This document shows, in pieces, positions 1 through 32,998 of a stretch of DNA of 33,829 bases (positions are counted from its first letter, which is position 1; every line of letters begins with the position of its first letter). The notes beneath the pieces are model-generated. The model was not told the origin of the DNA. It made no database searches and saw only the letters and a program-made list of their open reading frames with translations. This stretch comes from a virus, in the IMG/VR virus record IMGVR_UViG_3300027746_000058, positions 1 through 33,829 of that record; one strand, 5' to 3'. The position numbers and the translations under genes are program-made.

Positions 1-977
1 ATGCCACGGCCCCTGGAACCACGCTGAGCTCCAACCGCACCGGCGGCAGCTGTGACATCGCCGGGGCGTCCACCAGCACCACCGTGCCAACCAAGAGCAC
101 CAGCGGAACACCGATCAGCGGCCAGGCAACCGGCGGCGGAGCTTCGAGCACCTATTGGGCGGCGACTGGGCAATTCATTGATCTGTTCGGCGGTGGCACC
201 TTTGGCGGTGCGGCGCCCACCGATTCACCAGCAGGGCCAGCCGAAGGTGGCGCCAGGCAGTTCGCCAACAGCGGCGGACCCATCGGGCCGAGCACTGGCA
301 CCAATGCGCTGGGTGGAGATGACAGGTGCCCCTATGGCTATGCGCCATTTGTGCCGGAAGCCTTTGTTTATTTCAGGGCTGTGCCAAATGTTATCAGCAA
401 TAGTCCGCCAAACTATGGGTGGTATTCTACTGCTACATACCACTTTGTTTCGTTGGCAGTTTCCTATCTATCTCCTCGCCCTGTTGTGTGGCCAGGTAGC
501 AAGGTGCAGTATGGAGTAGCAAATGCCGGGGGTGATCTTGTCAAGTATGGCATTGCGCCTAAGTCTGTTCCGCTCAATCAACTCACGGTACTAGATATTT
601 TAGGTAACTACGATAGTGGAGCAACTAATGCCGCAGGCTACTTTACAGGCCGGGATATTTATTACGAGTTTTCTAACAGCAACACAACCAATACCGCTGC
701 AGTCCAATGGTCCGGCAATTATGGCGTAGACAATTTGTTCATTCTCGGTTACGTTTGCAGCTCTCAGGACGGCACCCCTGGCACGCCGGTGCTTGCAAAG
801 CTCTACAAGGTCGTCGAGGGCGACACCATGGCCAGCATCTCTCAGAAGGCCTACGGCACAACTTCCAGGGCGAATGACATCTTGGCCGCTAACCCAGTCT
901 TCGGGTTTAACAACACTTCTGAAGTGCAGGACTACTGGCTGATGGTTCCAGGCCGAATTCTTACAATCCCCAACTGA
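1..977 (+). CDS. Tail-associated protein with C-terminal LysM domain (5' partial)
   Basis: The frame is open from the window edge (first whole codon at base 3), so the gene is cut at its 5' end and the internal ATG at 84 need not be its start. The N-terminal visible part is rich in Gly, Thr and Ser. The last ~60 residues form a LysM-like module (YKVVEGDTMASISQKAYG, then ILAANP and MVPGRILTIPN). LysM binds peptidoglycan or related glycans, and in phage tails it is found in tip or hub proteins that contact the cell wall. Its stop overlaps the next ATG (TGATG), placing it in one operon with the gpM-like gene. The stretch at about 350-760 is visibly more AT-rich than the flanks, which suggests an exchanged domain. 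LysM is fairly sure; the exact tail role is inferred from neighbours. Confidence 0.7.
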   Translation, partial: ATAPGTTLSSNRTGGSCDIAGASTSTTVPTKSTSGTPISGQATGGGASSTYWAATGQFIDLFGGGTFGGAAPTDSPAGPAEGGARQFANSGGPIGPSTGTNALGGDDRCPYGYAPFVPEAFVYFRAVPNVISNSPPNYGWYSTATYHFVSLAVSYLSPRPVVWPGSKVQYGVANAGGDLVKYGIAPKSVPLNQLTVLDILGNYDSGATNAAGYFTGRDIYYEFSNSNTTNTAAVQWSGNYGVDNLFILGYVCSSQDGTPGTPVLAKLYKVVEGDTMASISQKAYGTTSRANDILAANPVFGFNNTSEVQDYWLMVPGRILTIPN

Positions 978-2137
978 TGACCACCTTCCCTTCCCTGGCA
1001 CCATCAGCCGCGCCGATCACCCCTGGCGCCTGGCCCGTCTCGGCAATCACCAGCCTCAATGGCGCCGAATCGCGCATCAGGCAGGGATCAGCGCAGATCG
1101 GCAGGCGGCTGCAACTCACGTTCACCAATATCACCGAGGCCAACTTCCTAGCGATCCTGGCTCATTACCAAGACCAGCGCTCTGGATTCGATCCGTTCGG
1201 ATTCGACACCGCCACCCTGGCTGCTGATCTCACCACAGCCGGCCATGCCTGGTTGTACGCCAGCCGCCCCCAGGTGGTCGATGAACACCTTGATGTGTTC
1301 ACGGTGGTCTGCGAGTTTAAAAGCGAGCCACGGGGGCTGGTGGCGGCAGCTGGCGATCGTTGGCGGACTGGGTCTACAACACTAGCGGCAGGCGCTGGGG
1401 CTGATGGCATCCGCGTGGCCGCAGGCAAGCAGCTGGCGACCACATTCACGACGCTGGCGGTGGGGGCAAGGTCTAGCGGAATTGGGTCATTCGGCGTGCT
1501 GTGGGCGACCAGCTCCACCACGCTCAGGCCGCAGACTCGCGCGACCCCTGGCGTGCAGGCCCCGCTTCTGGGCTCGGCGCCGGCAGCAAGCTCCACGGGA
1601 TGGACCTTGCTTGTTAATGCAAACGCAGATCAAGGAAACGCACTTTTCGGGAGCTGGCCGTTTACGTTCAATCTTGCGGGCACAGGGTATACAGCTTGTT
1701 ACGCGGGGTCTAACGGCTACGCAACTTTTGGGGCAGGTTCGCTTGCATACCAAAGCCTTAGCGCAAGCAATCCGGCCCTGCCAAAAGTCCTCTTTGGCTC
1801 GGCTGACCTTTCCTGGCAGCGCGTCTACACGCAAACCGGCAGCAACTACGCCAGATTCAGATGGGAGGGTCACTTTGCGACTACCGGCGCCACGCCAGGA
1901 GCATCAACCCGGATTGTTGAAGTCACCTTCTGGGGGTCAAACGGCGTTTCCCAGGCCATCGAAATTAGGACGGGAAATTTTGCAAGTCCCAGCGCCACCC
2001 AACCATTCATGCTTGCATCCGCAAGCGCGGACTACGCATCGGCGACCACGCTCGGAGCAAATCAAAGCTGGGTTTTCGAGGGGAACTTGACCGGAACAAG
2101 CTGGACGCTGATCGCCGACAGCTATGTGGCCGGCTAG
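977..2137 (+). CDS. gpM-like minor tail protein with C-terminal adhesin-like extension
   Basis: The first ~120 residues (FPSLAPSAAPITPGAWPVS, SRIRQGSAQIGRRLQLTFTN, HYQDQRSGFDPFGF) resemble phage minor tail proteins of the lambda gpM type and match in layout the short protein encoded at 2609-2977. After residue ~125 comes a Gly/Ala/Thr-rich linker, then a ~200-residue beta-rich region with many Trp, Tyr and Asn residues that looks like a secreted lectin or adhesin fold. The coding DNA of that region (about 1600-2100) is less GC-rich than the N-terminus. A tail-tip protein carrying a receptor- or glycan-binding extension is the likely reading. The family call rests on pattern resemblance, and the extension's ligand is unknown. 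Confidence 0.6.
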   Translation: MTTFPSLAPSAAPITPGAWPVSAITSLNGAESRIRQGSAQIGRRLQLTFTNITEANFLAILAHYQDQRSGFDPFGFDTATLAADLTTAGHAWLYASRPQVVDEHLDVFTVVCEFKSEPRGLVAAAGDRWRTGSTTLAAGAGADGIRVAAGKQLATTFTTLAVGARSSGIGSFGVLWATSSTTLRPQTRATPGVQAPLLGSAPAASSTGWTLLVNANADQGNALFGSWPFTFNLAGTGYTACYAGSNGYATFGAGSLAYQSLSASNPALPKVLFGSADLSWQRVYTQTGSNYARFRWEGHFATTGATPGASTRIVEVTFWGSNGVSQAIEIRTGNFASPSATQPFMLASASADYASATTLGANQSWVFEGNLTGTSWTLIADSYVAG

Positions 2138-2186: not shown

Positions 2187-2609
2187 ATGGCATCGGTTAT
2201 CTACGACAGCTTCCTGAGCGATGTTTTTGCCGGAAACTGCACCACAGCCAGCACCTATAAAGCAATGCTGGTCACATCGGCCTACGCCGAAGACCGTGGC
2301 GCCCATAGCAAGCGCAGCAGCGTCACAAACGAAGTCACCGGCACCGGCTACACCGCAGGCGGCGTGACGCTCACCCTATCGGCCAGCCTGAACACCACCA
2401 CGCACGTCCTGACGCTGACAATCCCCACGGCAACCTGGGCCAGCAGCACCATCACGGCGCGCAAGCTGATCGTGTATCGCTCCACTGGCACGGCGGCCAA
2501 CGACAACCTGGTGGCCTGCCTCGACAACATCACCGACCTCGTGAGCTCCGCAACCACCATGACCTGGCAAGCGTCCACCTGGACCATCCCGCTCCCCGCG
2601 CCGGTCTGA
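2187..2609 (+). CDS. Phage tail structural protein of unknown role
   Basis: This 140-residue protein begins MASVIYDSFLSDVFAGNC and has a beta-rich composition with many Thr, Ser and Ala residues and no transmembrane segment or catalytic motif. It sits between two gpM-like tail genes, and its TGA overlaps the ATG of the next gene, so it is almost certainly a virion or tail-assembly component. About 20 bases before the start there is a half-copy (TCCTAGCCTG) of the dispersed palindrome described in the findings. I do not recognise a named family. Confidence 0.6.
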   Translation: MASVIYDSFLSDVFAGNCTTASTYKAMLVTSAYAEDRGAHSKRSSVTNEVTGTGYTAGGVTLTLSASLNTTTHVLTLTIPTATWASSTITARKLIVYRSTGTAANDNLVACLDNITDLVSSATTMTWQASTWTIPLPAPV

Positions 2610-2977
2610 TGGCTGCTTTTCCCTCCATCGAACCGCTGGAGCGGAGTTATGACCTGGGGTCGCATCCCATCTCGGCGTCCGCATTCAGCAACGGAGACGA
2701 GACGCGCTTCCTGCATTCTTTTGTCTCCTCAGGCGTGCCGCTAGCGCTGGTGTTCCGCAAGCTCAGCCTCACCCAGGCCCGGCAGATCAGCGCGCACTGG
2801 GACGGCCAGGGCACCGCTCGGCCGTTCACCATCCCGGCGCACCTCTGGCGCACGCACAGCTCCACCACTGACGTGGTGCCCGCCACATTTGTCTGGCGTT
2901 ATGCGAGCGCGCCAGAGGAGACCCCGGCCAGCGGTGGCCTGTTCGATGTGTCTGTTGAGCTGCTCGCCGTTGCCTAG
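2609..2977 (+). CDS. gpM-like minor tail protein
   Basis: The 122-residue protein has the size and layout of lambda gpM-class tail-tip proteins: an FPSIEPL start, a central DETRFLHSFVSSGVPLALVF strand pair, a helix with QARQISAHWDG, and F-x-I-P-x-H-x-W before a beta-rich end. The 977-2137 protein carries the same layout as its N-terminal domain, so the two are probably paralogues arising from duplication, this one without the extension. The start overlaps the previous stop (TGATG). The family assignment is from resemblance by eye. Confidence 0.55.
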   Translation: MAAFPSIEPLERSYDLGSHPISASAFSNGDETRFLHSFVSSGVPLALVFRKLSLTQARQISAHWDGQGTARPFTIPAHLWRTHSSTTDVVPATFVWRYASAPEETPASGGLFDVSVELLAVA

Positions 2978-2979
2978 CC

Positions 2980-4107
2980 ATGACCTTCCCCACCCGCGTC
3001 AATCTGGCTGACACCTTCCGGCTGCACAGCAACCCAACGGCCACCAAAACGATCTACCTGGACTTCGACGGGCACATCACCACTGACCGCGCCTGGACCA
3101 ATCCGACCAACCCCACACTCACCACCGCGGCCTTCAGCACGGACGCCAACACGGCAGCGTTCAGCGATGCCGAGCTGGAGCGCATTCAGTTCATCTGGCA
3201 ACGGGTCGCCGAAGATTTCCTTCCCTTCGGGGTCAACGTCACCACCGAAGACCCTGGCGAAGCCGCCCTAGTCAACGCTGGCGGCAAAGATGATCGGTGG
3301 GGAGTCAGGGTTGCGATTGGGGGAAGCTCCAGTGACTGGTACGGCAGCTCAGCCGGTGGCGTGGCGGTTCAGAACAGTTTCGGTGACAATCGAGGTCCCG
3401 CTTTTGTCTTCTCAAAGAGTCTCGGCAGCGGCAATGAGAAATACACCGCAGAAGCGATCAGCCATGAGGTCGGCCACACCCTCGGCCTTATCCACGACGG
3501 CGCCGCCTCCTCCTCCGGCTCCTACTTCCAGGGCCAGGGCAAGGGCCTTACCGGCTGGGCTCCGATCATGGGCGTTGCCTATGGCAAGCCGGTGAGCCAG
3601 TGGAGCCAGGGGGAGTTCAACAAGGCCAACAACGTTCAGGATGACTTGGCGACGATCGCATCCCGCGTTGGATTCCGAGCTGACGACTTCGGCGACACCA
3701 TCGCCCACGCCAAGCCGCTCAGCGGTCCCAGCCTGAATCAGTTTGGGCTTATCGCAACCCGCAAAGACTCCGACTGGTTCAGCTTCTCCACCGGCGCAGG
3801 CAACGTCAGCCTCTTGATCAACAATGCCACTCAGGCCTGGGTCAGCAGCGGCGGGGGATTTACCAGCTACATCCTTGCCGGGCGCAGTCCCAACCTGGAC
3901 ATCGCCGCCAGCCTGTTTGCCGCCGATGGCACCTTGATCGCCACCAGCAACCCGTTCAACAAGCTGAGCGCCAGCTTCAATCTCAGCCTGGCAGCGGGCG
4001 CCTATTACCTGATGGTTGATGGTGTCGGCTTTGGTGATCCGGCCACCAACGGCTACAGCGACTACGGCAGTCTCGGGGGATACCTGGTTACAGGGACTCT
4101 GATCTGA
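2980..4107 (+). CDS. Metzincin zinc metalloprotease with C-terminal PPC domain
   Basis: Residues 162-173 read HEVGHTLGLIHD, the metzincin zinc site HExxHxxGxxHD with Glu163 as general base. About 24 residues later PIMG supplies the Met-turn (Met197). The N-terminal part (IYLDFDGH, FSDAELERIQFIWQRVAEDF) is typical of secreted bacterial metalloproteases, as found in cyanobacteria. Residues ~230-375 form a bacterial pre-peptidase C-terminal (PPC)-like beta domain (DDFGDTIAHAKPL, DSDWFSF, AAGAYYLMVDG). No signal peptide is visible, which would fit delivery on the virion or release at lysis rather than Sec export. It lies two bases after the gpM-like gene in the tail operon. Catalysis is well supported by motifs; target and localisation are unknown. 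Confidence 0.88.
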   Translation: MTFPTRVNLADTFRLHSNPTATKTIYLDFDGHITTDRAWTNPTNPTLTTAAFSTDANTAAFSDAELERIQFIWQRVAEDFLPFGVNVTTEDPGEAALVNAGGKDDRWGVRVAIGGSSSDWYGSSAGGVAVQNSFGDNRGPAFVFSKSLGSGNEKYTAEAISHEVGHTLGLIHDGAASSSGSYFQGQGKGLTGWAPIMGVAYGKPVSQWSQGEFNKANNVQDDLATIASRVGFRADDFGDTIAHAKPLSGPSLNQFGLIATRKDSDWFSFSTGAGNVSLLINNATQAWVSSGGGFTSYILAGRSPNLDIAASLFAADGTLIATSNPFNKLSASFNLSLAAGAYYLMVDGVGFGDPATNGYSDYGSLGGYLVTGTLI

Positions 4108-4124
4108 ATCAGCAGACTGGGGCC

Positions 4125-4832
4125 ATGACTCCCACCACCGCCTCAGTCCGCGACGCTGCTCAGGAGATCGCCAAGCGTGGCGGGATCCTGCCCCACCAGC
4201 TGGCGGCTTTCTCCGCTCTGGATCAGGCTCTCACTCCTGAGCAGCGCCAAGCATTCACGGCGGACTGGAGAGCCGCTGGGAGCCCGGCGGCGCCCGCCGC
4301 TCAGCCGCAGCGCGCTGGATTGGTTGGCCCCAAGCGGAGCCCAGACCTGAAAGCTGGCGATCACCATCTGGTGGTGGACGATCGGGCCGAGACGGTCACC
4401 GCCTTCAACCACAAAGGTGAGCGGCTGTGGACCGTAGCGGCCCTGGCCAGGGGCCAATCATCCGAAACCGATTGGCGCTCCCGCGCCAGCGATACCCCGC
4501 CGGGCCTGTACAAGGTCGGCACGATCTACCGCGACTTTGAATCCGACCCCTCGGCAACCTTCACCGCTGAGCGCCGCGCTTACGGGTGGTACAGCTTTGA
4601 CCTGATCGGCCTTGAGGGGCAGGAGGGGCCCGGCAGCCGGGACGGTCGCGACGGAATCATGCTCCACGGCGGTGGCTCGGCCTGCGGCTGGCCTGGTGCC
4701 TGGCTGCCGCTCCAGCCGCTCTATCCAACGCTCGGGTGCATCCGAATGCACAACCGCGACCTCAGGGATCTGCTGCTCCCCCTGGCCGGGATGGGGACGA
4801 TCTACGTCTCGGTCTGGCAAGAGAGCAGATGA
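4125..4832 (+). CDS. L,D-transpeptidase (YkuD) family protein
   Basis: The 235-residue protein has an N-terminal helical, Ala/Pro-rich region (1-65) and a YkuD catalytic domain. The visible signature is GIMLHGG followed by TLGCIRMHNRDL, giving the His and the Ser/Thr-x-Gly-Cys-x-Arg nucleophile motif. YkuD enzymes make or break L,D cross-links in peptidoglycan, or act as L,D-carboxypeptidases. No signal peptide or membrane segment is visible, so it would have to reach the wall on the virion or after holin action. It may therefore act in entry or lysis. The stop overlaps the phosphoesterase start (ATGA). The domain is certain; the biological role is inferred. Confidence 0.85.
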   Translation: MTPTTASVRDAAQEIAKRGGILPHQLAAFSALDQALTPEQRQAFTADWRAAGSPAAPAAQPQRAGLVGPKRSPDLKAGDHHLVVDDRAETVTAFNHKGERLWTVAALARGQSSETDWRSRASDTPPGLYKVGTIYRDFESDPSATFTAERRAYGWYSFDLIGLEGQEGPGSRDGRDGIMLHGGGSACGWPGAWLPLQPLYPTLGCIRMHNRDLRDLLLPLAGMGTIYVSVWQESR

Positions 4833-5980
4833 GCGAGCGCACTTTCCAATGCCGCCGCAACAAGGCCTGCCGGGCCTGGCTGCCGGAGAGTGCGATTGAT
4901 TGGCAGATTGAATCAGGCATCCGCCGGCCGTTCTGCCAGCCGGGGATGTGCCCCAACAACAAGCGATCGGACACGTCTGACGAGTTGTTGGCGTTGCAGC
5001 TGGAGCTCCGCCGAATGAAGGAGACCGCTCGGACTGCCGAGCGCGATCGGGACCGTGCCCTGGCGGAGCTGGCCAACACTCTGGATTCGCTGAGCACAGC
5101 CTTGGACATTCGGGAGATTGAGCAGCCAGAGCCGCTGAGCGATCACCACCACGGCGCCCGATCCGAATCGGTCCCGATCCTGCTCTGTTCGGACTGGCAC
5201 TGCGGCGCCGTGGTGCGCGCGGAATCGGTGAACAACCTCAACAGCTACGACGTGGACGAGTTCCACCGACGGGCCGGAGCCCTGTTCGTCAATGCCCTGA
5301 AGGTGATCCGCATGGTGCGGAGCAGCTGCGATGTTCAGCAGATGGTGCTCTGGCTCGGCGGCGACCTAATTGACAACTGGCTGCACCCTGAGCAGGCCCA
5401 GACCCAGGAGCTATCGCCAACCCAGCAGATCATCGAATGCGAGCGCGCCATCGTGGCTGGCATCGATCACCTGCTGGAGCACGGCGCATTCGATCGCATC
5501 GTGATCCCCTGCAGCTACGGCAACCACGGGCGTACCACCCCCAAGATGCAGGCCGACAACGCGCACGCCACCAGCTACGAATGGCTGATGTACCAAAGCC
5601 TGCGCCGGCACTATCGGCATGAGCCGCGCATTGAATGGCATATCAGCGACGGCAACATTCTCTATGTGGAGGTGCTCGGCCGGCTGCTCCGCTTTCATCA
5701 CGGTGATGCCATCCGCTACCAGGGCGGCATTGGTGGCCTGACTGTGCCGCTCACCAAGTGGCAACTCAGGCAGGATCAGGGCATTGCCGCTGACCACAGC
5801 TTCTTTGGCCACTTTCACCAGCTGACCATGGGCACCGGCTGGTCGGTGAATGGCTCGCTCATCGGGCCAACCGCCTATGGGCTCAAGCTCGGATTTGCGC
5901 CAGAGCGCCCACAGCAGCTACTGCGCTTCCTCGACAGCGAGCGCGGCTGGACTGGGGCCTTCCCCGTCTTGACGGACTGA
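4829..5980 (+). CDS. Calcineurin-like metallophosphoesterase
   Basis: The ATG at 4829 overlaps the preceding stop (ATGA) and is preferred to the in-frame ATG at 4736, which lies inside the upstream gene. The protein has a Cys-containing N-terminus (CRRNKACRAW, CQPGMC), a coiled coil at about 50-90, and then all blocks of a two-metal phosphoesterase: SDWHCG, GGDLIDN, YGNHGR, HHGD and GHFH. Such proteins hydrolyse phosphodiesters in nucleotides, RNA or DNA. The N-terminal cysteines (C-x4-C ... C-x4-C) could form a small zinc-binding module. It is the last rightward gene of the tail-linked cargo trio. The substrate cannot be read from sequence. Confidence 0.85.
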   Translation: MSERTFQCRRNKACRAWLPESAIDWQIESGIRRPFCQPGMCPNNKRSDTSDELLALQLELRRMKETARTAERDRDRALAELANTLDSLSTALDIREIEQPEPLSDHHHGARSESVPILLCSDWHCGAVVRAESVNNLNSYDVDEFHRRAGALFVNALKVIRMVRSSCDVQQMVLWLGGDLIDNWLHPEQAQTQELSPTQQIIECERAIVAGIDHLLEHGAFDRIVIPCSYGNHGRTTPKMQADNAHATSYEWLMYQSLRRHYRHEPRIEWHISDGNILYVEVLGRLLRFHHGDAIRYQGGIGGLTVPLTKWQLRQDQGIAADHSFFGHFHQLTMGTGWSVNGSLIGPTAYGLKLGFAPERPQQLLRFLDSERGWTGAFPVLTD

Positions 5981-6119: not shown

Positions 6120-6398
6120 ATGGACGGCTGGTGGCTGAAGCCTGAACTCAGTCTGTCCAGGGAGCTGGAGCTGGAGACGGCTCGCCGGGAGATTCCCCGG
6201 CTCCACCGGCACGACCTAGAAGCCCGGCTTGATTCGGCGCTGGTTCACTGCGTGACCTTTGACCACCTGCTTCGGCAGGCCCTTGCGCGGGTGCAGGAGC
6301 TGGAGATCAAAGAAGCGTTAGCTGCTCCCCCAGCTCCGCGCCATCTGGCATGGGCCCGGGATTTGATGGCGGAGCTGGGAGTGAAGCCGAAGGACTGA
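6120..6398 (+). CDS. Small helical protein, candidate divergent NblA-like phycobilisome degradation factor
   Basis: The 92-residue protein has the core ELSLSRELELETARREI-x-LxxxDLEARLDSAL-x6-DHLLRQAL, which resembles the two-helix NblA core (LSLEQ-F-LR-F-x-V, then LSRE-L-LL-AL-Q-x-RHLL). NblA adapters bind phycobilisomes and hand them to Clp proteases; freshwater cyanophages such as Ma-LMM01 carry nblA. The protein is longer than typical NblA (~60 residues) because of a C-terminal RVQELEIKEAL helix and tail. The last 92 bases overlap convergently with the 3' end of the sigma gene. The gene is plausible on its helical periodicity; the NblA call is tentative and could be chance similarity between amphipathic helices. 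Confidence 0.45.
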   Translation: MDGWWLKPELSLSRELELETARREIPRLHRHDLEARLDSALVHCVTFDHLLRQALARVQELEIKEALAAPPAPRHLAWARDLMAELGVKPKD

Positions 6399-7254
6399 GC
6401 CGGCGCAGGGTGTTCTCCGCCAAGCGGATCAGACCCCGGGCGCGATGGACCGACATTCGTTCCCGCTGCGCCAGCTCGGCAACACCGACCACCGGCTCAC
6501 CCAGGCCGTAACGCCCCCGAATCAACCGCTGGGCCCGCTCATCAAGCCGCGCCACCAGCGCCAGCAGCTCATCCCGGCGTGGGCTGGGGGACTCATCTTC
6601 GTCAGCGCTGAGCATGTCGATCAGCGCGGACGGGTCGCCGGATGTGGAGCCCGGCAGCGGAGCATCGAGCGAATGGCAGCCAGCACCGATCAGCAGCAGA
6701 TGCTCCAGCTCGGCCTGGGCGATGCCCAGCTCTTGGGCCAGCTCGGCGCGGCTGGGGGTGCGGCCAAGGTGAGCAGCCAGAGCTGCCGCCACCTTCCCAG
6801 CCCTGGCGATGGTGCCGGTGTGGGTGGTGGGTATTCGGATCGTGCGGCCGTGGCTATCGATGTGCCTGCTGATCCCCTGGCGGATCCACCAATAGGCATA
6901 GGTGCTGAGCTTGTACCCACGGGTCGGGTCAAACTTCTCAACCCCACGCTGCAGGCCGATCGCACCAGCCTGGAGCAGGTCGGGCAGATCAGCTTCGGCC
7001 ACCGCCACCCCCAGACCATGCCGGGCCCGCCTGGCAACGTGAGCCACCAGGCGCAGGTTGGCCGACACCATGCGGTCCCGGGCCCGCAGGCCCCGCCGGC
7101 GGACTGACGGAGGGGCTTGATCTGCCGATGGCTCCCAGTCCTGCCACCGCCGCACCAAGGCCCCCAGGTGAAGGGCCTCGGATTCAGTGAGCAACGGATG
7201 GCGGCCGGCCTGCTCCAGCCAATGCGTGGTCATGTCGCTGCTGGTTGGCCGCAT
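6307..7254 (-). CDS. Sigma-70 family RNA polymerase sigma factor (cyanobacterial group 2-like)
   Basis: The 315-residue protein carries region 1.2 (HWLEQAGRHPLLTESEALHL), region 2 (SANLRLVAHVARR, DLLQAGAIGLQRGVEKFDPT, GYKLSTYAYWWIRQGISR), region 3 (AAALAAHLGRTPSRAELAQEL) and a region 4 near 245-290 (LIRGRYGLGE, HRARGLIRLAENTLRRL). It should direct host RNA polymerase to phage promoters. The full-length 1.2-to-4 layout and the region 2 wording resemble cyanobacterial primary/group 2 sigmas rather than T4 gp55. Met8 (MTTHWLEQ) is an alternative start. It is the distal gene of the leftward operon from SSB, starting just after the small membrane protein's stop. Confidence 0.9.
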   Translation of the reverse strand: MRPTSSDMTTHWLEQAGRHPLLTESEALHLGALVRRWQDWEPSADQAPPSVRRRGLRARDRMVSANLRLVAHVARRARHGLGVAVAEADLPDLLQAGAIGLQRGVEKFDPTRGYKLSTYAYWWIRQGISRHIDSHGRTIRIPTTHTGTIARAGKVAAALAAHLGRTPSRAELAQELGIAQAELEHLLLIGAGCHSLDAPLPGSTSGDPSALIDMLSADEDESPSPRRDELLALVARLDERAQRLIRGRYGLGEPVVGVAELAQRERMSVHRARGLIRLAENTLRRLSPSASLPAPPSNPGPMPDGAELGEQLTLL

Positions 7255-10378: not shown

Positions 10379-11683
10379 TCACCAGCTACGCGGCTGAGCG
10401 TGGACTTCCCCAGATCGACCTACCTGCAGCGAATCCAGCACCGCGCCAAACAGCGCCCGCTGCTCAGGTGCAGACGCGCCGGTGAAGAAGGCGGGGTCGC
10501 CGATGCGTTCGGCAACTGCCAGTAAGTCCGGCGACACCCTGGGCCGGTGGCTCAGGCTTTCGATCTCCGTCCGCAAGGCAGCACATGCTGACGCCAGCGC
10601 CGGATTGCGGCGCGCCAGCCCCTCAAGCTGTTCCAGGTCGCGTCGCTTGGCGGCAACCGCCGGATCTTCGTCGGTCGGTGCTGCTGCCACCGCTGCCAGC
10701 CGATCGGCGGCGGCGATGCAGGCGGCCACCACCTGAGCCAGTGCCGTCTCCTCCCGGATCCCGGCCTTCTCTTCACACAGCCGATGGCGGCAGCGCCACC
10801 AGGCCGTTCCGCCTGAGTTGTTCCGGCGAAGGGTGTGGCCGCAGGATGCGCAGCGCAGCAGGCCGGCGAGGCCATGGCGAACTTCGTTTGCGTGGCCCTG
10901 AAACCGATTCGCCGGCCGCCGCAGAAATTGGGCCAGATCTTGCCAGTCGGCCTCACCAATCAGCGCCGGGTGCTGGTCATATCTGATCTCTCCCCACCGC
11001 TGGCCCCAACCCTTGCCGCTGCCCTTCTCAAGCATGTGGCCGATGTGGCCGCGAATCACCGGATTCACGAACCAGGCTTGCAGGCTGCTCGGCGCTGGGG
11101 TCCAGGCGCACCAGCCCGGCAGATCGTTCGCAGTGCCGGTGAAGCTGCCAATCTCCCGCAGCCTGCGCAACACCTTCAACGCCTGGGGCCAATGCTCCGA
11201 GTGTGGCTCCAGCTTGTGATCGGCGCCGCCCTGGTAGCCGAAGGGTTTGCGCCGGCGCAGGTGGCGGCCCTGGGAGCGGTACTGCTCGAACTGGCGCCGC
11301 AGCCGCAGGCTCAGCATCCGCGACTCCACCTCGGCCATGGTGGTGAGCAGCCTGGCTTGCAGGAATCCCTGAGGCGTGGCCGATTCAATGGTGCCACCGT
11401 CCAGCGCGGTGACGGTCACCCCCCGCAGCGCACACAGGGCCAGCAGCTCATCGGCAAAGGCAGCATTACGACCCAGCCGGTCGGCCCTGGTGATCACCAG
11501 CTCGCTCACCCGGCCGGCGCGCACCTCGGCCACCACCTCGGCCAGGCCGGGTCGGTCGTCGTTGCGGCCTGATTCGAGCTCCTCCACCACCGCATCGCAG
11601 CCGGCGCCCCGGAGGCGGCCCACCTGGGCCGGCAAAGAATCGGCCTGCTCCTCCTTGGACACACGGGCGTATCCCAGCTTCAT
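10379..11683 (-). CDS. Large serine recombinase (XisF-like phage integrase)
   Basis: The 434-residue protein has a resolvase catalytic domain starting GYARVSKEEQADSLPAQ with Ser9 as nucleophile, followed by ITRADRLGRN and LTTMAEVESRMLSLRLRRQ. A recombinase domain follows (FGYQGG, WFVNPVIRGHIGHM), then a zinc ribbon (LLRCASCGHTL ... WRCRHRLC) and a coiled-coil-like helical C-terminus. This is the layout of large serine integrases and the cyanobacterial fdxN-element recombinase XisF. It should integrate the phage at a short attB, so the phage is temperate. The upstream 11684-11834 region is a candidate attP. The next gene downstream on the same strand is the XRE regulator. Confidence 0.92.
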   Translation of the reverse strand: MKLGYARVSKEEQADSLPAQVGRLRGAGCDAVVEELESGRNDDRPGLAEVVAEVRAGRVSELVITRADRLGRNAAFADELLALCALRGVTVTALDGGTIESATPQGFLQARLLTTMAEVESRMLSLRLRRQFEQYRSQGRHLRRRKPFGYQGGADHKLEPHSEHWPQALKVLRRLREIGSFTGTANDLPGWCAWTPAPSSLQAWFVNPVIRGHIGHMLEKGSGKGWGQRWGEIRYDQHPALIGEADWQDLAQFLRRPANRFQGHANEVRHGLAGLLRCASCGHTLRRNNSGGTAWWRCRHRLCEEKAGIREETALAQVVAACIAAADRLAAVAAAPTDEDPAVAAKRRDLEQLEGLARRNPALASACAALRTEIESLSHRPRVSPDLLAVAERIGDPAFFTGASAPEQRALFGAVLDSLQVGRSGEVHAQPRSW

Positions 11684-13595: not shown

Positions 13596-13633
13596 CGGTC
13601 AGCCTCCTGCTGGTTGCGAATGTCGTTGCTCAT
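13592..13633 (-). CDS. 13-codon mini-ORF bridging two genes
   Basis: The frame encodes MSNDIRNQQEADR. Its ATG overlaps the GNAT gene's stop (ATGA) and follows AAAGGAGGTG by 6 bases, a near-ideal Shine-Dalgarno. Its own stop overlaps the next gene's ATG (ATGA). It probably passes ribosomes along the operon (a coupling peptide) or is the remnant of a lost gene: its last 17 bases equal the end of the 14486-14845 gene. Confidence 0.45.
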   Translation of the reverse strand: MSNDIRNQQEADR

Positions 13634-14142
13634 GGTTGCACCTCCTTTGATAGATCTAGCTCTAAATAGATGCGCTCTGACTCCTTTCCTGTGATCTTAA
13701 ATAATTTCTTGTACAGGGCATGAGCGTTTGCTTCGGATGGATGCGTAGAAGTGTAAAGGCGAAGATATTTTTTCCCGGCCTGACGGGCTAGTTGAATTGC
13801 AAACTGAAGCAGTTTTTTCCCAATGCCATTCCCACGAAAGCCTGAATCGACGCAGAACCAGGAAAGCCAGCAGGCTTCGTTGTCATCTTTGCGGTATGTA
13901 TAAACTCCCACAGTACCGATAACCCGATTACCAGCATCCAATGCTACCCAGTCACTCAAAGAAGTGATTTGCCAACCGACTGAGAGTGCCCAGCGATAAA
14001 GAAATTGTGGATCAGAAACAGAGAAGAAAAGCCTTCGATGCAGCCATGGATAATGGCCAAAATTTTCATCGACTAGCCTCTGCGCTGCGCAGAGGTTTTC
14101 CTGATTTAGGGGTCGAATCACGATGTCCAGGGGAACGCTCAT
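13630..14142 (-). CDS. GNAT-family N-acetyltransferase
   Basis: The start at 14142 overlaps the previous stop (ATGA); the upstream in-frame extension only shadows that gene. The 170-residue protein has the GNAT fold elements: VIGTVGVYTYRKDD, WLSWFCVDSGFRGNGIGKKL with the acetyl-CoA pyrophosphate loop R-G-N-G-I-G, and NAHALYKKLFKITGKESERI. It transfers an acetyl group to an unknown amine. The coding DNA is clearly more AT-rich and codon-diverse than its neighbours, indicating recent acquisition as a moron gene. A role in protecting the lysogen or modifying a host or phage protein is possible. Confidence 0.88.
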   Translation of the reverse strand: MSVPLDIVIRPLNQENLCAAQRLVDENFGHYPWLHRRLFFSVSDPQFLYRWALSVGWQITSLSDWVALDAGNRVIGTVGVYTYRKDDNEACWLSWFCVDSGFRGNGIGKKLLQFAIQLARQAGKKYLRLYTSTHPSEANAHALYKKLFKITGKESERIYLELDLSKEVQP

Positions 14143-14489
14143 GGCTGCACCTCCCCGGCCTGGGGCAGCGGGATGGCGTGGGCGGGGAGCCAGTGGGTGT
14201 AGAAAGTGTGCTTTCCGTCTTGGCCCAACGGTGGCTCCAAGGTCCAGGTGGCAAAGTTTCGGTAGAGCACCCAGCACCATCCTTGTGCCGTGCATTCCTC
14301 CGGCTCCGGCAGCCGCTCACTCACTGGCACCGGCACCACCACTGGGGCGGGCGCGGAGAGTTCCTGGAGCAGGGCGGCGCGGGCGCGGGTGATCAGAGCG
14401 CGGTGCTCGTGATACGGATTTGCGCCGTCGTATTCAGCCAGCGGCTGCAACAGCTCAGCGCACAGGGTGCGGAAGTCGGGGGTGGTCAT
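14139..14489 (-). CDS. DUF551-like phage protein
   Basis: The C-terminal half, SERLPEPEECTAQGWCWVLY, then WTLEPPLG and YTHWLPAHAIPLPQ, matches the DUF551 pattern of a Trp-rich small beta domain ending THWLPL-P. The N-terminal half is helical with a short Pro-rich linker. DUF551 proteins are common in phages and have no established function. The start overlaps the previous stop (ATGA), and the gene's end carries GGAGGTG for the GNAT start. Confidence 0.7.
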   Translation of the reverse strand: MTTPDFRTLCAELLQPLAEYDGANPYHEHRALITRARAALLQELSAPAPVVVPVPVSERLPEPEECTAQGWCWVLYRNFATWTLEPPLGQDGKHTFYTHWLPAHAIPLPQAGEVQP

Positions 14490-29753: not shown

Positions 29754-30115
29754 TGGCTTTCACCGAGTCGCTCGATCCGTTCCTCGCCGACTTCGGCGTG
29801 GCGGTGACCGCTGGAGCCGTTTCAGGTGTTGGCGTCCTTGACCAAAACTCCGAGATCATCCTCGGCGGCGAAATCACGATCATTGATTATTTGCTGACCG
29901 TGCCGACAGCCACCTTCGGCAGCCTGAGCTATGGCGACCTGGTGACGGTTGACAGCACCAGCTACAAGGTTGAAACCCAGCCGCAGCGCTTTGACGACGG
30001 CACGTTCTGCCGGGTGCCGCTGGTGAAGATGGATCCAGATCCCGCGATTGATTACATCTTGGACGGTGGCGCCGCGCTTGCCTCCGGCACTCTCTACGAC
30101 GGTGGTGGAGCATGA
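29753..30115 (+). CDS. Head-tail joining protein (lambda FII-like)
   Basis: The 120-residue protein (MAFTESLDPFLADFGVAVTA, LGGEITIIDYLLTVPTATF, YGDLVTVDSTSYKVETQPQR) has the size and beta-sandwich pattern of FII-type attachment proteins that cap the connector and bind the tail. The position after the capsid agrees. It overlaps the fibre gene start by ATGA. Confidence 0.75.
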   Translation: MAFTESLDPFLADFGVAVTAGAVSGVGVLDQNSEIILGGEITIIDYLLTVPTATFGSLSYGDLVTVDSTSYKVETQPQRFDDGTFCRVPLVKMDPDPAIDYILDGGAALASGTLYDGGGA

Positions 30116-32400
30116 GCCAAACGATCCCGGCCCGCATTGTTATCCGCCGCGACACGGCTGCGAACTGGACGACGGTTAATCCCGTCCTGCTCAATGGCGA
30201 ATGGGGGTTTGAGACTGACGCCAGGAAGCTGAAGATCGGCGATGGCGCCACGGCCTGGAGCGCGCTGAGCTACTTCTCCACCGGCAGCGGCGGCGGCGGC
30301 AACACCATCCTGAGCGGCAGCGGCGCCCCTAGCAGCGCCCTGGGCGTCAACGGTGACATCTACCTGGACACGGCAGCCACGCGCCTGTATGGCCCCAAGA
30401 CGGCCGGCGCGTGGGGCTCTGGCGTTTCGTTGATCGGCGCCGCCGGAGCAAACGGGACGAACGGCACGGCAGCCACCGTCAGCGTTGGCACGGTGACCAC
30501 AGGCGCTGCGGGATCGTCAGCAACGGTCACGAACACCGGCACAAGCTCCGCCGCCGTGCTGGCCTTCGCCATCCCCCGCGGTGACGCCGGAACGAACGGC
30601 ACGAACGGCACGGCGGCCACCGTCAGCGTTGGCACGGTGACCACAGGCACCGCCGGATCGTCCGCATCAGTCACGAACAGCGGCACATCCTCGGCGGCCA
30701 CGCTGAACTTCACCATCCCCCGAGGCGACGCAGGGACGAACGGAACCAACGGCACAGCCGCCACGATCTCTGTTGGGACCGTCACCACCGGCGCCGCTGG
30801 CACATCCGCCAGCGTCACGAACGCCGGAACCAGCAGCGCGGCCGTCTTCAACTTCACCATCCCCCGCGGCGATACCGGCGCTGGTGGTGGTGGCAGCGGC
30901 ACGGTCACCAGCGTTGGCCTGAGCCTGCCTGGCCTTTTCTCGGTCACCGGCTCCCCAGTCACCGCCACCGGCACGCTCACCGCCACCTTGGCCACGCAGA
31001 GCGCCAACCTCGTCTGGGCTGGCCCAACCACGGGTGGGGCCGCCGCTCCGACCTTCCGCTCCCTGGTGGCGGCCGACTTGCCTGCTACAGCGGTGAGCGC
31101 CGGCAGCTACACCTATGGCAGCTTCACGGTTGATGCCGCAGGCAGGCTCACAGCGGCCAGCAACGGCACGGTGCCAATCGCATCGGTCCTGACCGGCTTC
31201 ACCAGCGGCGCCGGGACCATCGCCGCAACCGACTCGATCTTGACGGCGATTCAGAAGCTTAACGGCAACGACGCTGCAAAGGCCACCGCTGGCGCCATCA
31301 CCGGCTCGGGCCTGACCATGGCGACGGCCCGCCTGCTGGGTCGAACCACAGCAACTACGGGTGCGGTCGAGGAGATCAGCATCGGCGCCAACCTGACACT
31401 GACTGGTGGCGTACTGGCGGCAACTGGCGGTGGAGGAGGCGGATCTCCAGGCGGCAGCACCACTCAGGTTCAGTACAACGATGCGGGCGCATTCGCGGGC
31501 GCAACCAACGTAAAGATCAATTCCAACAACCTTCAACTAACCACCCCAGTTAGCACACCTGCTGCGGCGGATGCGTCAAGCGTTGTTCCATATCCGGTTG
31601 ATATAGCCAACAGGTTTATGCTGGCCATGCAGGGGCCGACTGGTGCAGCCACGCTGTTGCAGCCCAGCATATTCAGTAATAGCATCATGCTTTTTGCTCC
31701 GGCGAGCACAACAACGGGAACCGGGAGTAGCGCTTTCCAGCCAGCATGGACTTCAAATGGGACAGTTACCCACCCAGCGCCTGCTGCAACGGACGTAGCC
31801 AGCGCTGGCAGGCGCACCGCCTACTCAAATGTAGTTACAACCACGGACCAACAGTTAGGGCCACGATGCAACGCCACCGAGTTAAGGGCTTTCTTTAGAG
31901 GTAACGTTGCCAATACCGGCGGGTTTTTCTACTATTCCCGGTTTCGTATTACTTGTCCCGCTGCGACTGTAAGGCTATTTACGGGGTTGCAAGGGCAGGG
32001 ATTTGCGGCCTCAATTTGCATTTCCGATACCTCGGCCGGTCCATTTTGTGGCCTTTCTCACATCACCACCGACCCGGCGACAGGATCTGGTGCGCTGAGC
32101 TTTGTTACCCACGACGGCACTACTAGGAACGCGCTGCCCATCAACCTCACAGCAAGCTTGGTGACCAACTCACCGCTGCTGGAATTCAGTATGTATTGCG
32201 CCCCAAATGGTGGCACTATTTTCTTTAGGTTGGACGACGTAAGCAACGGAGTTACCTACACAAACTCTACAACGGCCAACATTCCTGGAGCAACCGTAAC
32301 AATGTCTCCGCAGTGTCAAGCAAGCAACGGCACTGCAAACGTAACCGCGAACGCCGTCACCTTGTCCGTGTACAAGATATATGTCGAGAGTGTCTATTGA
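30112..32400 (+). CDS. Fibre protein with tandem 48-residue repeats
   Basis: The N-terminus (ARIVIRRDTAANWTTVNPVL, then GEWGFETDARKLKIGDGATA-W) is the small domain found at the start of many phage fibre and tropism proteins. Three 48-residue repeats follow at about 110-254, each G-T-N-G-T-A-A-T-V-S-V-G-T-V-T-T-G and ending IPRGD. A Gly-rich middle and a beta-rich C-terminus with lower-GC coding DNA (about 31500-32400) form the likely receptor-binding head. It lies between head-joining and tail-terminator genes, so a head fibre or a displaced tail fibre are both possible. Confidence 0.8.
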   Translation: MSQTIPARIVIRRDTAANWTTVNPVLLNGEWGFETDARKLKIGDGATAWSALSYFSTGSGGGGNTILSGSGAPSSALGVNGDIYLDTAATRLYGPKTAGAWGSGVSLIGAAGANGTNGTAATVSVGTVTTGAAGSSATVTNTGTSSAAVLAFAIPRGDAGTNGTNGTAATVSVGTVTTGTAGSSASVTNSGTSSAATLNFTIPRGDAGTNGTNGTAATISVGTVTTGAAGTSASVTNAGTSSAAVFNFTIPRGDTGAGGGGSGTVTSVGLSLPGLFSVTGSPVTATGTLTATLATQSANLVWAGPTTGGAAAPTFRSLVAADLPATAVSAGSYTYGSFTVDAAGRLTAASNGTVPIASVLTGFTSGAGTIAATDSILTAIQKLNGNDAAKATAGAITGSGLTMATARLLGRTTATTGAVEEISIGANLTLTGGVLAATGGGGGGSPGGSTTQVQYNDAGAFAGATNVKINSNNLQLTTPVSTPAAADASSVVPYPVDIANRFMLAMQGPTGAATLLQPSIFSNSIMLFAPASTTTGTGSSAFQPAWTSNGTVTHPAPAATDVASAGRRTAYSNVVTTTDQQLGPRCNATELRAFFRGNVANTGGFFYYSRFRITCPAATVRLFTGLQGQGFAASICISDTSAGPFCGLSHITTDPATGSGALSFVTHDGTTRNALPINLTASLVTNSPLLEFSMYCAPNGGTIFFRLDDVSNGVTYTNSTTANIPGATVTMSPQCQASNGTANVTANAVTLSVYKIYVESVY
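30441..30872 (+). repeat. Three tandem 144-bp coding repeats in the fibre gene
   Basis: Units begin near 30441, 30585 and 30729 with 144-base spacing and share the ACGAACGGCACG core and the IPRGD end. Unequal recombination could change fibre length. Confidence 0.8.
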
Positions 32401-32696
32401 TGGAACCAAATTACGCTGGTTTCTGGGCGGCGTTCAAGGGCACTGCGGCCTGGCAAGGGATGATGTCAATGGCCCGATATTCCGAGGCGATTGAACTGCG
32501 CACCGTGAGGCTGCGCGTTGAGATGCTTGACGCCATCAACGGCAACGCCAACCAGGCCGACATCCAGGAGTCGATCTGGAGGTTGATGGAGCTGGCGGGC
32601 AGTAGCGCACAGGAAACGCAGCTACAGGAGCTGGTGGGTCTTCTCGCCCTGTACAACCTCACCCCCACCTACTCCCTGCAGCCGTCGGCAGAATGA
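32400..32696 (+). CDS. Hypothetical 98-residue protein after the fibre
   Basis: The ATG overlaps the fibre stop (TGATG). The product (MEPNYAGFWAAFKGTAAWQG, LRVEMLDAINGNANQADIQE) is helical with no membrane segment. Position suggests a fibre chaperone or a small virion protein; no family is recognised. Confidence 0.6.
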   Translation: MEPNYAGFWAAFKGTAAWQGMMSMARYSEAIELRTVRLRVEMLDAINGNANQADIQESIWRLMELAGSSAQETQLQELVGLLALYNLTPTYSLQPSAE

Positions 32697-32998
32697 GCAC
32701 AACGCCCGTATCCGCTATGCCACCAGAGGACGTATCGCACCGGGACATCTATGTCCGGCTTGCTGAGCTGGGCGCCAAGATTGACAACATCCTTTCGATC
32801 ATGGCCGAGCGCAAGGAAGACGTAGCCAGGATCACCAAGGATCTTGATGCGCTGTTCAGCCGCCAGCGCGCTCTGGAATCCCGACTCGCCCAGATCGCCG
32901 GCATTGGCCTGGTGCTGGCGGTGGGGATCCCGGCATTGGCGACCATGTTCCAGCTCAGGCTTGCCGTTCCGGTCGAGCATCAGCAGGTGAAGCCATGA
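32693..32998 (+). CDS. Coiled-coil plus membrane protein, XhlA/holin-like
   Basis: The 101-residue product has a coiled coil (YVRLAELGAKIDNILSIMAE, DLDALFSRQRALESRLAQIA) followed by a membrane segment GIGLVLAVGIPALATMF near the C-terminus. This is the layout of XhlA-type holin-associated proteins. A lysis role is inferred. The start overlaps the previous stop (ATGA). Confidence 0.6.
   Translation: MSTTPVSAMPPEDVSHRDIYVRLAELGAKIDNILSIMAERKEDVARITKDLDALFSRQRALESRLAQIAGIGLVLAVGIPALATMFQLRLAVPVEHQQVKP

Follow-up and report, generated by a model that had tools for sequence, protein, structure and literature searches.

The window analysed here is the whole of IMG/VR record IMGVR_UViG_3300027746_000058, a single virus contig of 33,829 bases, in which a run of tail genes is followed by three closely packed open reading frames (ORFs) encoding a metzincin protease (375 amino acids), a protein with a YkuD (L,D-transpeptidase-fold) domain (235 amino acids) and a calcineurin-like phosphoesterase (383 amino acids). 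An earlier note on this DNA had taken the three together as one set of enzymes, either carried in the virion for entry or used for lysis. Gene content, homology, fold, domain partners and the exchange of lysins at one slot point to a different explanation, namely that tail and lysis genes of a temperate-type cyanosiphovirus meet at this locus, which comprises a YkuD endolysin, a DNA exonuclease-type phosphoesterase and a host-derived metzincin and is not an entry cassette; we give this reading a probability of about 0.78.

The three ORFs and their spacing are as first described. Two bases separate the stop of the upstream minor-tail gene (2977) from the metzincin ATG (2980), 17 bases lie between the metzincin and YkuD genes, and the phosphoesterase start overlaps the YkuD stop by 4 bases. 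The latter start is the ATG at 4829, from which the protein aligns with its homologues from residue 1; the GTG at 4736, which opens the longest frame, was dropped in its favour. None of the three N-termini showed a hydrophobic segment, in agreement with the remark that the protease and the transpeptidase lack visible signal peptides. Pairwise ratios of nonsynonymous to synonymous substitution are about 0.2-0.3 for the metzincin and about 0.1 for YkuD and the phosphoesterase, and all three are therefore taken to be real genes under purifying selection. A scan for promoters and terminators gave hits at chance level only. The contig is linear and incomplete, starting inside a tail gene and ending after the tail-terminator gene, so that part of the tail module is missing.

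The YkuD protein and its slot

YkuD enzymes are best known as builders or trimmers of the cell wall. The window protein exceeds the Pfam cut-off for PF03734 (35.6 against 23.4 bits), which confirms the identity originally proposed, and carries both the catalytic histidine (H181) and, as TLGCIR, the (S/T)xGC(I/V)R motif; H181, G204, C205 and R207 are invariant in 20 aligned homologues. Compared by VIA-align, a structural model with a mean predicted local distance difference test score (pLDDT) of 68.5 matches the L,D-transpeptidases 5e51_C (Z 12.4, root-mean-square deviation 2.7 over 101 residues) and 1y7m_A (Z 12.2, 2.4 over 109 residues), and Foldseek ranks the LD-carboxypeptidases Bd1075 and Pgp2 first, with DpaA also among the matches. 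These YkuD-fold hydrolases share the fold of the window protein but are cellular proteins, and since VIA-align Z-scores are nearly equal for hydrolases and transpeptidases the fold does not separate the two activities. A sequence search of solved structures was uninformative for YkuD and for the phosphoesterase, and no PHROG family matched the YkuD protein at E-values up to 0.1. Among annotated phages its matches are confined to the Synechococcus phages S-CRM01, S-CBS4 and B23; among viral contigs, relatives are encoded on at least 250 stretches.

The domain is fused to a glycosidase in 33 of 58 non-redundant phage ORFs: GH24 in 25 (the S-CRM01 ORF being counted here), Phage_lysozyme2 in six, a glucosaminidase in one (S-CBS4) and GH19 in one (B23). 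In S-CRM01 the YkuD gene (g112) directly follows the lysozyme gene (g113) with a 1-base overlap, and the N-terminus of its product is still reminiscent of a GH24 C-terminus; the pair (L160:5204-6513) looks like a split fusion. Fusions and adjacency of this kind are the usual signs of shared function. A homologous YkuD domain, 58% identical, forms part of a lysin in S-CBS4 gp063 (a RefSeq endolysin, annotated endolysin/lysozyme), where it is preceded by a glucosaminidase domain, whereas the window protein has no glycosidase and begins with a module of 56 residues.

This module (residues 1-56) lies outside the YkuD domain, and in other contigs it recurs, at this position or close to it, on C39, GH24+M15 and M15 proteins. 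When the module alone was scanned against the viral collection, a recognised peptidoglycan-hydrolase domain (C39, GH24, M15, YkuD, GH19, glucosaminidase or Phage_lysozyme2) accompanied it in 61 of 62 complete non-redundant ORFs, an association that is not built in because the scan used neither YkuD nor the phosphoesterase, and the remaining ORF (L328) also reads like a lysin. Pfam gave only a sub-threshold DUF6247 match (residues 31-51); we infer that the module may be a wall-binding or targeting domain. The L328 protein (L328:2998-4218) carries the module with no match in the domain set used, and its C-terminus (GIHYDENHGVAPGSAGCVVL) looks like a further cysteine L,D-peptidase-like domain.

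Exchangeable lysins after the tail genes are ordinary in siphoviruses. In relatives of the window the place behind the minor-tail genes is held interchangeably by C39, GH24+M15 or YkuD lysins, and at 25 non-redundant loci with an adjacent phrog_15525 minor-tail gene the next gene is a lysin in 19 (of several architectures), the metzincin in one and nothing recognised in five. The window ORFs scanned yielded no second catalytic domain of lysin type. The YkuD ORF has a peptidoglycan-acting domain in a late, lysis position, and its homologues are joined to, or lie next to, known endolysin domains; of the marks of a virion-associated lysin, neither fusion to a structural domain nor constant linkage to the tail was found, the S-CBS4 and S-CRM01 genes lying in non-tail contexts. 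It is best read, on these comparisons, as an endolysin.

As such the protein would be made late in the cytoplasm, from a transcript that it would share with the phosphoesterase, would be released by a holin and would cut peptide stems or cross-links beside meso-diaminopimelate, by LD-endopeptidase or LD-carboxypeptidase action, thereby breaking the wall at lysis. Transpeptidase, carboxypeptidase and endopeptidase activities have all been reported for YkuD enzymes (PMC12729407), which makes a lytic role chemically plausible. YkuD is also listed among endolysin catalytic domains in ten PhaLP entries (PMC8310338), a hot-spring survey (PMC5017753) and a gut survey (PMC13284279), all of which rest on domain annotation; our literature search found no biochemically characterised phage YkuD lysin.

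Several points weigh against the endolysin, whose hydrolytic activity is a prediction. The hydrolase DpaA lacks the conserved arginine (PMC12729407), whereas the phage protein keeps it in TLGCIR, as is typical of true transpeptidases, and may therefore still transpeptidate. Some relatives are fused to PF18013, whose name, 'Phage tail lysozyme', would suit virion lysins as well. Another lysin could lie in the missing part of the record. No holin was identified in the window, the sole candidate (32693-32998) having no family match; this ORF of 101 amino acids on the plus strand has a coiled-coil-like stretch and one C-terminal transmembrane segment and is by shape a candidate holin or holin helper.

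The phosphoesterase and the metzincin

The phosphoesterase matches PHROG_284, 'exonuclease', at 2.6e-48 and also PHROG_704, 'DNA repair exonuclease', and the motifs DWH, GGD, GNH, HHGD and GHFH are visible in its translation. Its homologue in phage S-CBS1 (gp28, PHROG_284, 'DNA repair exonuclease') is 63.5% identical over 99% of the protein and that in KBS-S-2A 65.6%; both belong to operons with exonuclease VIII, with RusA (S-CBS1) or SSB (KBS-S-2A) a few genes off and a sigma-factor gene shortly downstream. S-CBS1 gp28 ends its recombination operon, whereas the window gene follows a lysin; the recombination and replication context is seen in these two phages and not in the window. Of 49 non-redundant phosphoesterase loci, 19 have a lysin directly upstream, 21 have one within 2.5 kb downstream and nine have none nearby, whereas 32 have a sigma factor within the 3 kb downstream; this suggests a gene for DNA processing that keeps closer company with the sigma factor than with any single lysin. 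Sequence assigns the protein to the DNA exonuclease family as a predicted DNA-processing enzyme, and its proposed action on outer layers is ruled out by the PHROG_284 assignment.

The description of the first gene as a PPC-domain metzincin was borne out in its active site and less so in its domain scores. The zinc motif HEVGHTLGLIHD (residues 162-173) and the Met-turn IMG (196-198) are present, and the key residues of the zinc motif (HEVGHTLGLIH; HExxHxxGxxH) and Met-turn are invariant in six aligned phage homologues; nevertheless the protein falls narrowly below every Pfam metzincin cut-off (the best, DUF4953 Met-zincin, 23 against 24.2 bits) and its PPC match (PF04151, residues 263-348) is weak at 15.3 against 25.9 bits. 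A Cyanobium homologue lies above the Reprolysin_5 and Reprolysin_3 cut-offs. The search of solved structures gave weak snake-venom/ADAM-type matches only, and a structure prediction from five sequences (mean pLDDT 39.5) was not used. No binding or tail domain was found in the window protein.

Such a gene is indeed uncommon in phages, as the earlier note held: at the search sensitivity used it occurs in 8 of 2.9 million viral contigs, in unrelated neighbourhoods, and it is absent from most relatives that share YkuD or the phosphoesterase. In the close relatives L006, L007 and L009, which lack it, the insertion point falls exactly between the minor-tail stop and the conserved YkuD leader AATCAGCAGACTG, while L003 has a different upstream gene and retains the order metzincin, YkuD, phosphoesterase. 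Synonymous divergence of metzincin and YkuD is similar (0.74 and 0.80 against L002; 0.66 and 0.62 against the L003/L011 contig), and the two have thus been inherited together within this group. The metzincin follows tail-fibre-like genes in L005 and lies between the gp21 protease and the gp22 scaffold in S-CRM01. The latter phage likewise has both genes, its metzincin homologue (SCRM01_042) standing about 43 kb from YkuD; this copy was separately acquired, is longer and has a weak F5/8-type match. Two further copies were noted: L246:7791-9131 has an extra N-terminal stretch and lies, as read from translations, near psbA-like and talC (transaldolase)-like genes, like an auxiliary host gene, and L248:7590-9704, on a 72 kb viral contig, codes for a distant metzincin (29% identity), has a signal-like N-terminus and comes immediately behind a portal-like gene.

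Cellular homologues occupy at least 188 loci, with cyanobacteria, planctomycetes and others among the matches listed. Most are longer, with N- and C-terminal extensions missing from the window copy, and several from Nostoc begin at the catalytic domain, so that the missing signal peptide is no evidence for a virion location. In the tree six phage metzincins form one clade (support 100/98) beside the cyanobacterium UBA5018 and span phage types, the S-CRM01 protein stands apart beside Cyanobium and Synechococcus, and the starred branches force three label changes. On this placement the gene most likely derives from cyanobacterial extracellular-type proteases, by two or more acquisitions from hosts followed by transfer from one phage type to another, and in the window it is, as far as these comparisons tell, a rare passenger gene inserted at a gene boundary. 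Carried between phages and presumably co-expressed late, it might degrade host proteins at or after lysis, or act from the virion on surface proteins.

Surrounding genes

Table 1. Features of the tail-to-lysis locus in the window
Feature	Positions	Strand	Basis
Tail protein, 3' part, weak C-terminal LysM match	3-977	+	5' end cut by record end; full-length homologue L009 = phrog_27845 tail protein
Minor tail protein	977-2137	+	phrog_15525, 1.4e-25
Conserved tail-cluster gene, phrog_644	2187-2609	+	phrog_644 match
Minor tail protein directly upstream of lysin slot	2609-2977	+	phrog_15525, 8.2e-29
Metzincin protease, C-terminal beta domain PPC-like; accessory gene inserted between the minor-tail and endolysin genes	2980-4107	+	Zinc motif, Met-turn, junction comparison, tree
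Candidate endolysin: 56-residue N-terminal module and YkuD (L,D-transpeptidase-fold) catalytic domain	4125-4832	+	PF03734, fold, glycosidase fusions
N-terminal module, residues 1-56, common to cyanophage lysins of differing chemistry	4125-4292	+	Separate module scan
YkuD active-site region, His181 (4665-4667) to TLGCIRM with Cys205 (4737-4739)	4665-4748	+	Invariant residues in 20 homologues
Calcineurin-like phosphoesterase, PHROG_284 exonuclease (SbcD/Mre11-like)	4829-5980	+	Profile match; recombination-module context in S-CBS1 and KBS-S-2A
RNA polymerase sigma factor bounding the locus	6307-7254	-	phrog_351, 7.6e-48

Between the phosphoesterase and the sigma factor lies an ORF of 92 amino acids (6120-6398, plus strand), and a similar protein (L079:5512-5907) adjoins another YkuD lysin. 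Further along, a large serine recombinase/integrase (phrog_95; 10379-11683, minus strand) suggests a temperate phage, and a GNAT acetyltransferase (Pfam 4.1e-15; 13630-14295, minus strand) lies in the non-structural part of the genome. A tail-fibre protein of 762 amino acids (30112-32400, plus strand) has a Major tropism determinant N-terminal domain (PF18454); no reverse transcriptase turned up among the window ORFs scanned, no search aimed at one having been made.

Competing explanations and significance

The earlier proposal that protease, wall enzyme and phosphodiesterase are carried together in the particle and open the cell surface layer by layer draws on the tight spacing of the three genes behind the tail genes and on the metzincin copies near structural genes in S-CRM01 and L005. 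The gene contexts of relatives speak otherwise: the phosphoesterase falls in a DNA exonuclease family found in recombination operons, the YkuD genes of S-CRM01 and S-CBS4 stand beside DNA-metabolism genes at a distance from the tail genes, and the metzincin sits elsewhere in other phages. The three genes assort independently, and the supposed cassette consists of genes of different origin; none of the proteins is fused to a structural domain. An entry role is accordingly rejected for the phosphoesterase and unlikely for YkuD, and we regard the set as a whole as highly improbable. The lysis set offered as its alternative is supported for one of the three genes, YkuD, on its fusions, its lysin-only module and its slot. 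A narrower version, in which YkuD is an endolysin and only the metzincin rides in the virion, where it would remove surface or extracellular-matrix proteins at adsorption, is a good deal less far-fetched, though still doubtful. The S-CRM01 copy lies among head genes and its weak C-terminal F5/8-type match is sugar-binding-like, and the zinc site is retained under purifying selection; against this stand the lack of a binding or tail domain in the window protein and the auxiliary-gene setting of the copy on the myovirus-like contig L246. Our literature search found no PPC metzincin in a virion. A virion protease is a tentative assignment, the main competing idea being that the enzyme acts at lysis time or outside the cell.

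YkuD might also modify the wall rather than lyse it, as a transpeptidase that reinforces or marks it, for instance in superinfection exclusion. The active site is intact and of the transpeptidase type, arginine included, and the fold is closest to L,D-transpeptidases, yet the recurrent fusions to glycosidases, the lysin-only N-terminal module and the presence of C39 or GH24+M15 lysins in its slot in relatives argue for lysis, and the protein has no signal peptide for continuous export; we consider a wall modifier improbable. About equally improbable is a two-part exit system unlike the described endolysin sets, in which a stand-alone L,D-transpeptidase-type enzyme would disable cross-linking by transpeptidation or exchange, not plain hydrolysis, while the co-expressed, circulating metzincin would clear protein barriers. 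The endolysin at a tail-to-lysis junction remains the preferred explanation.

What is new here is an apparently unnamed N-terminal module of cyanophage lysins, together with a predicted stand-alone YkuD lysin, in which YkuD is the sole recognised enzyme domain and no glycosidase is present, and a putative metzincin gene shared by cyanophages. Were the YkuD protein shown to lyse cells, it would define a class of endolysin and explain the exit of many cyanophages. The 56-residue module, found on lysins of at least four chemistries and matching no Pfam family above cut-off, is a candidate wall-binding or targeting domain for cyanobacteria, and the metzincin appears as a host-derived protease gene under purifying selection across siphovirus- and myovirus-type cyanophages.

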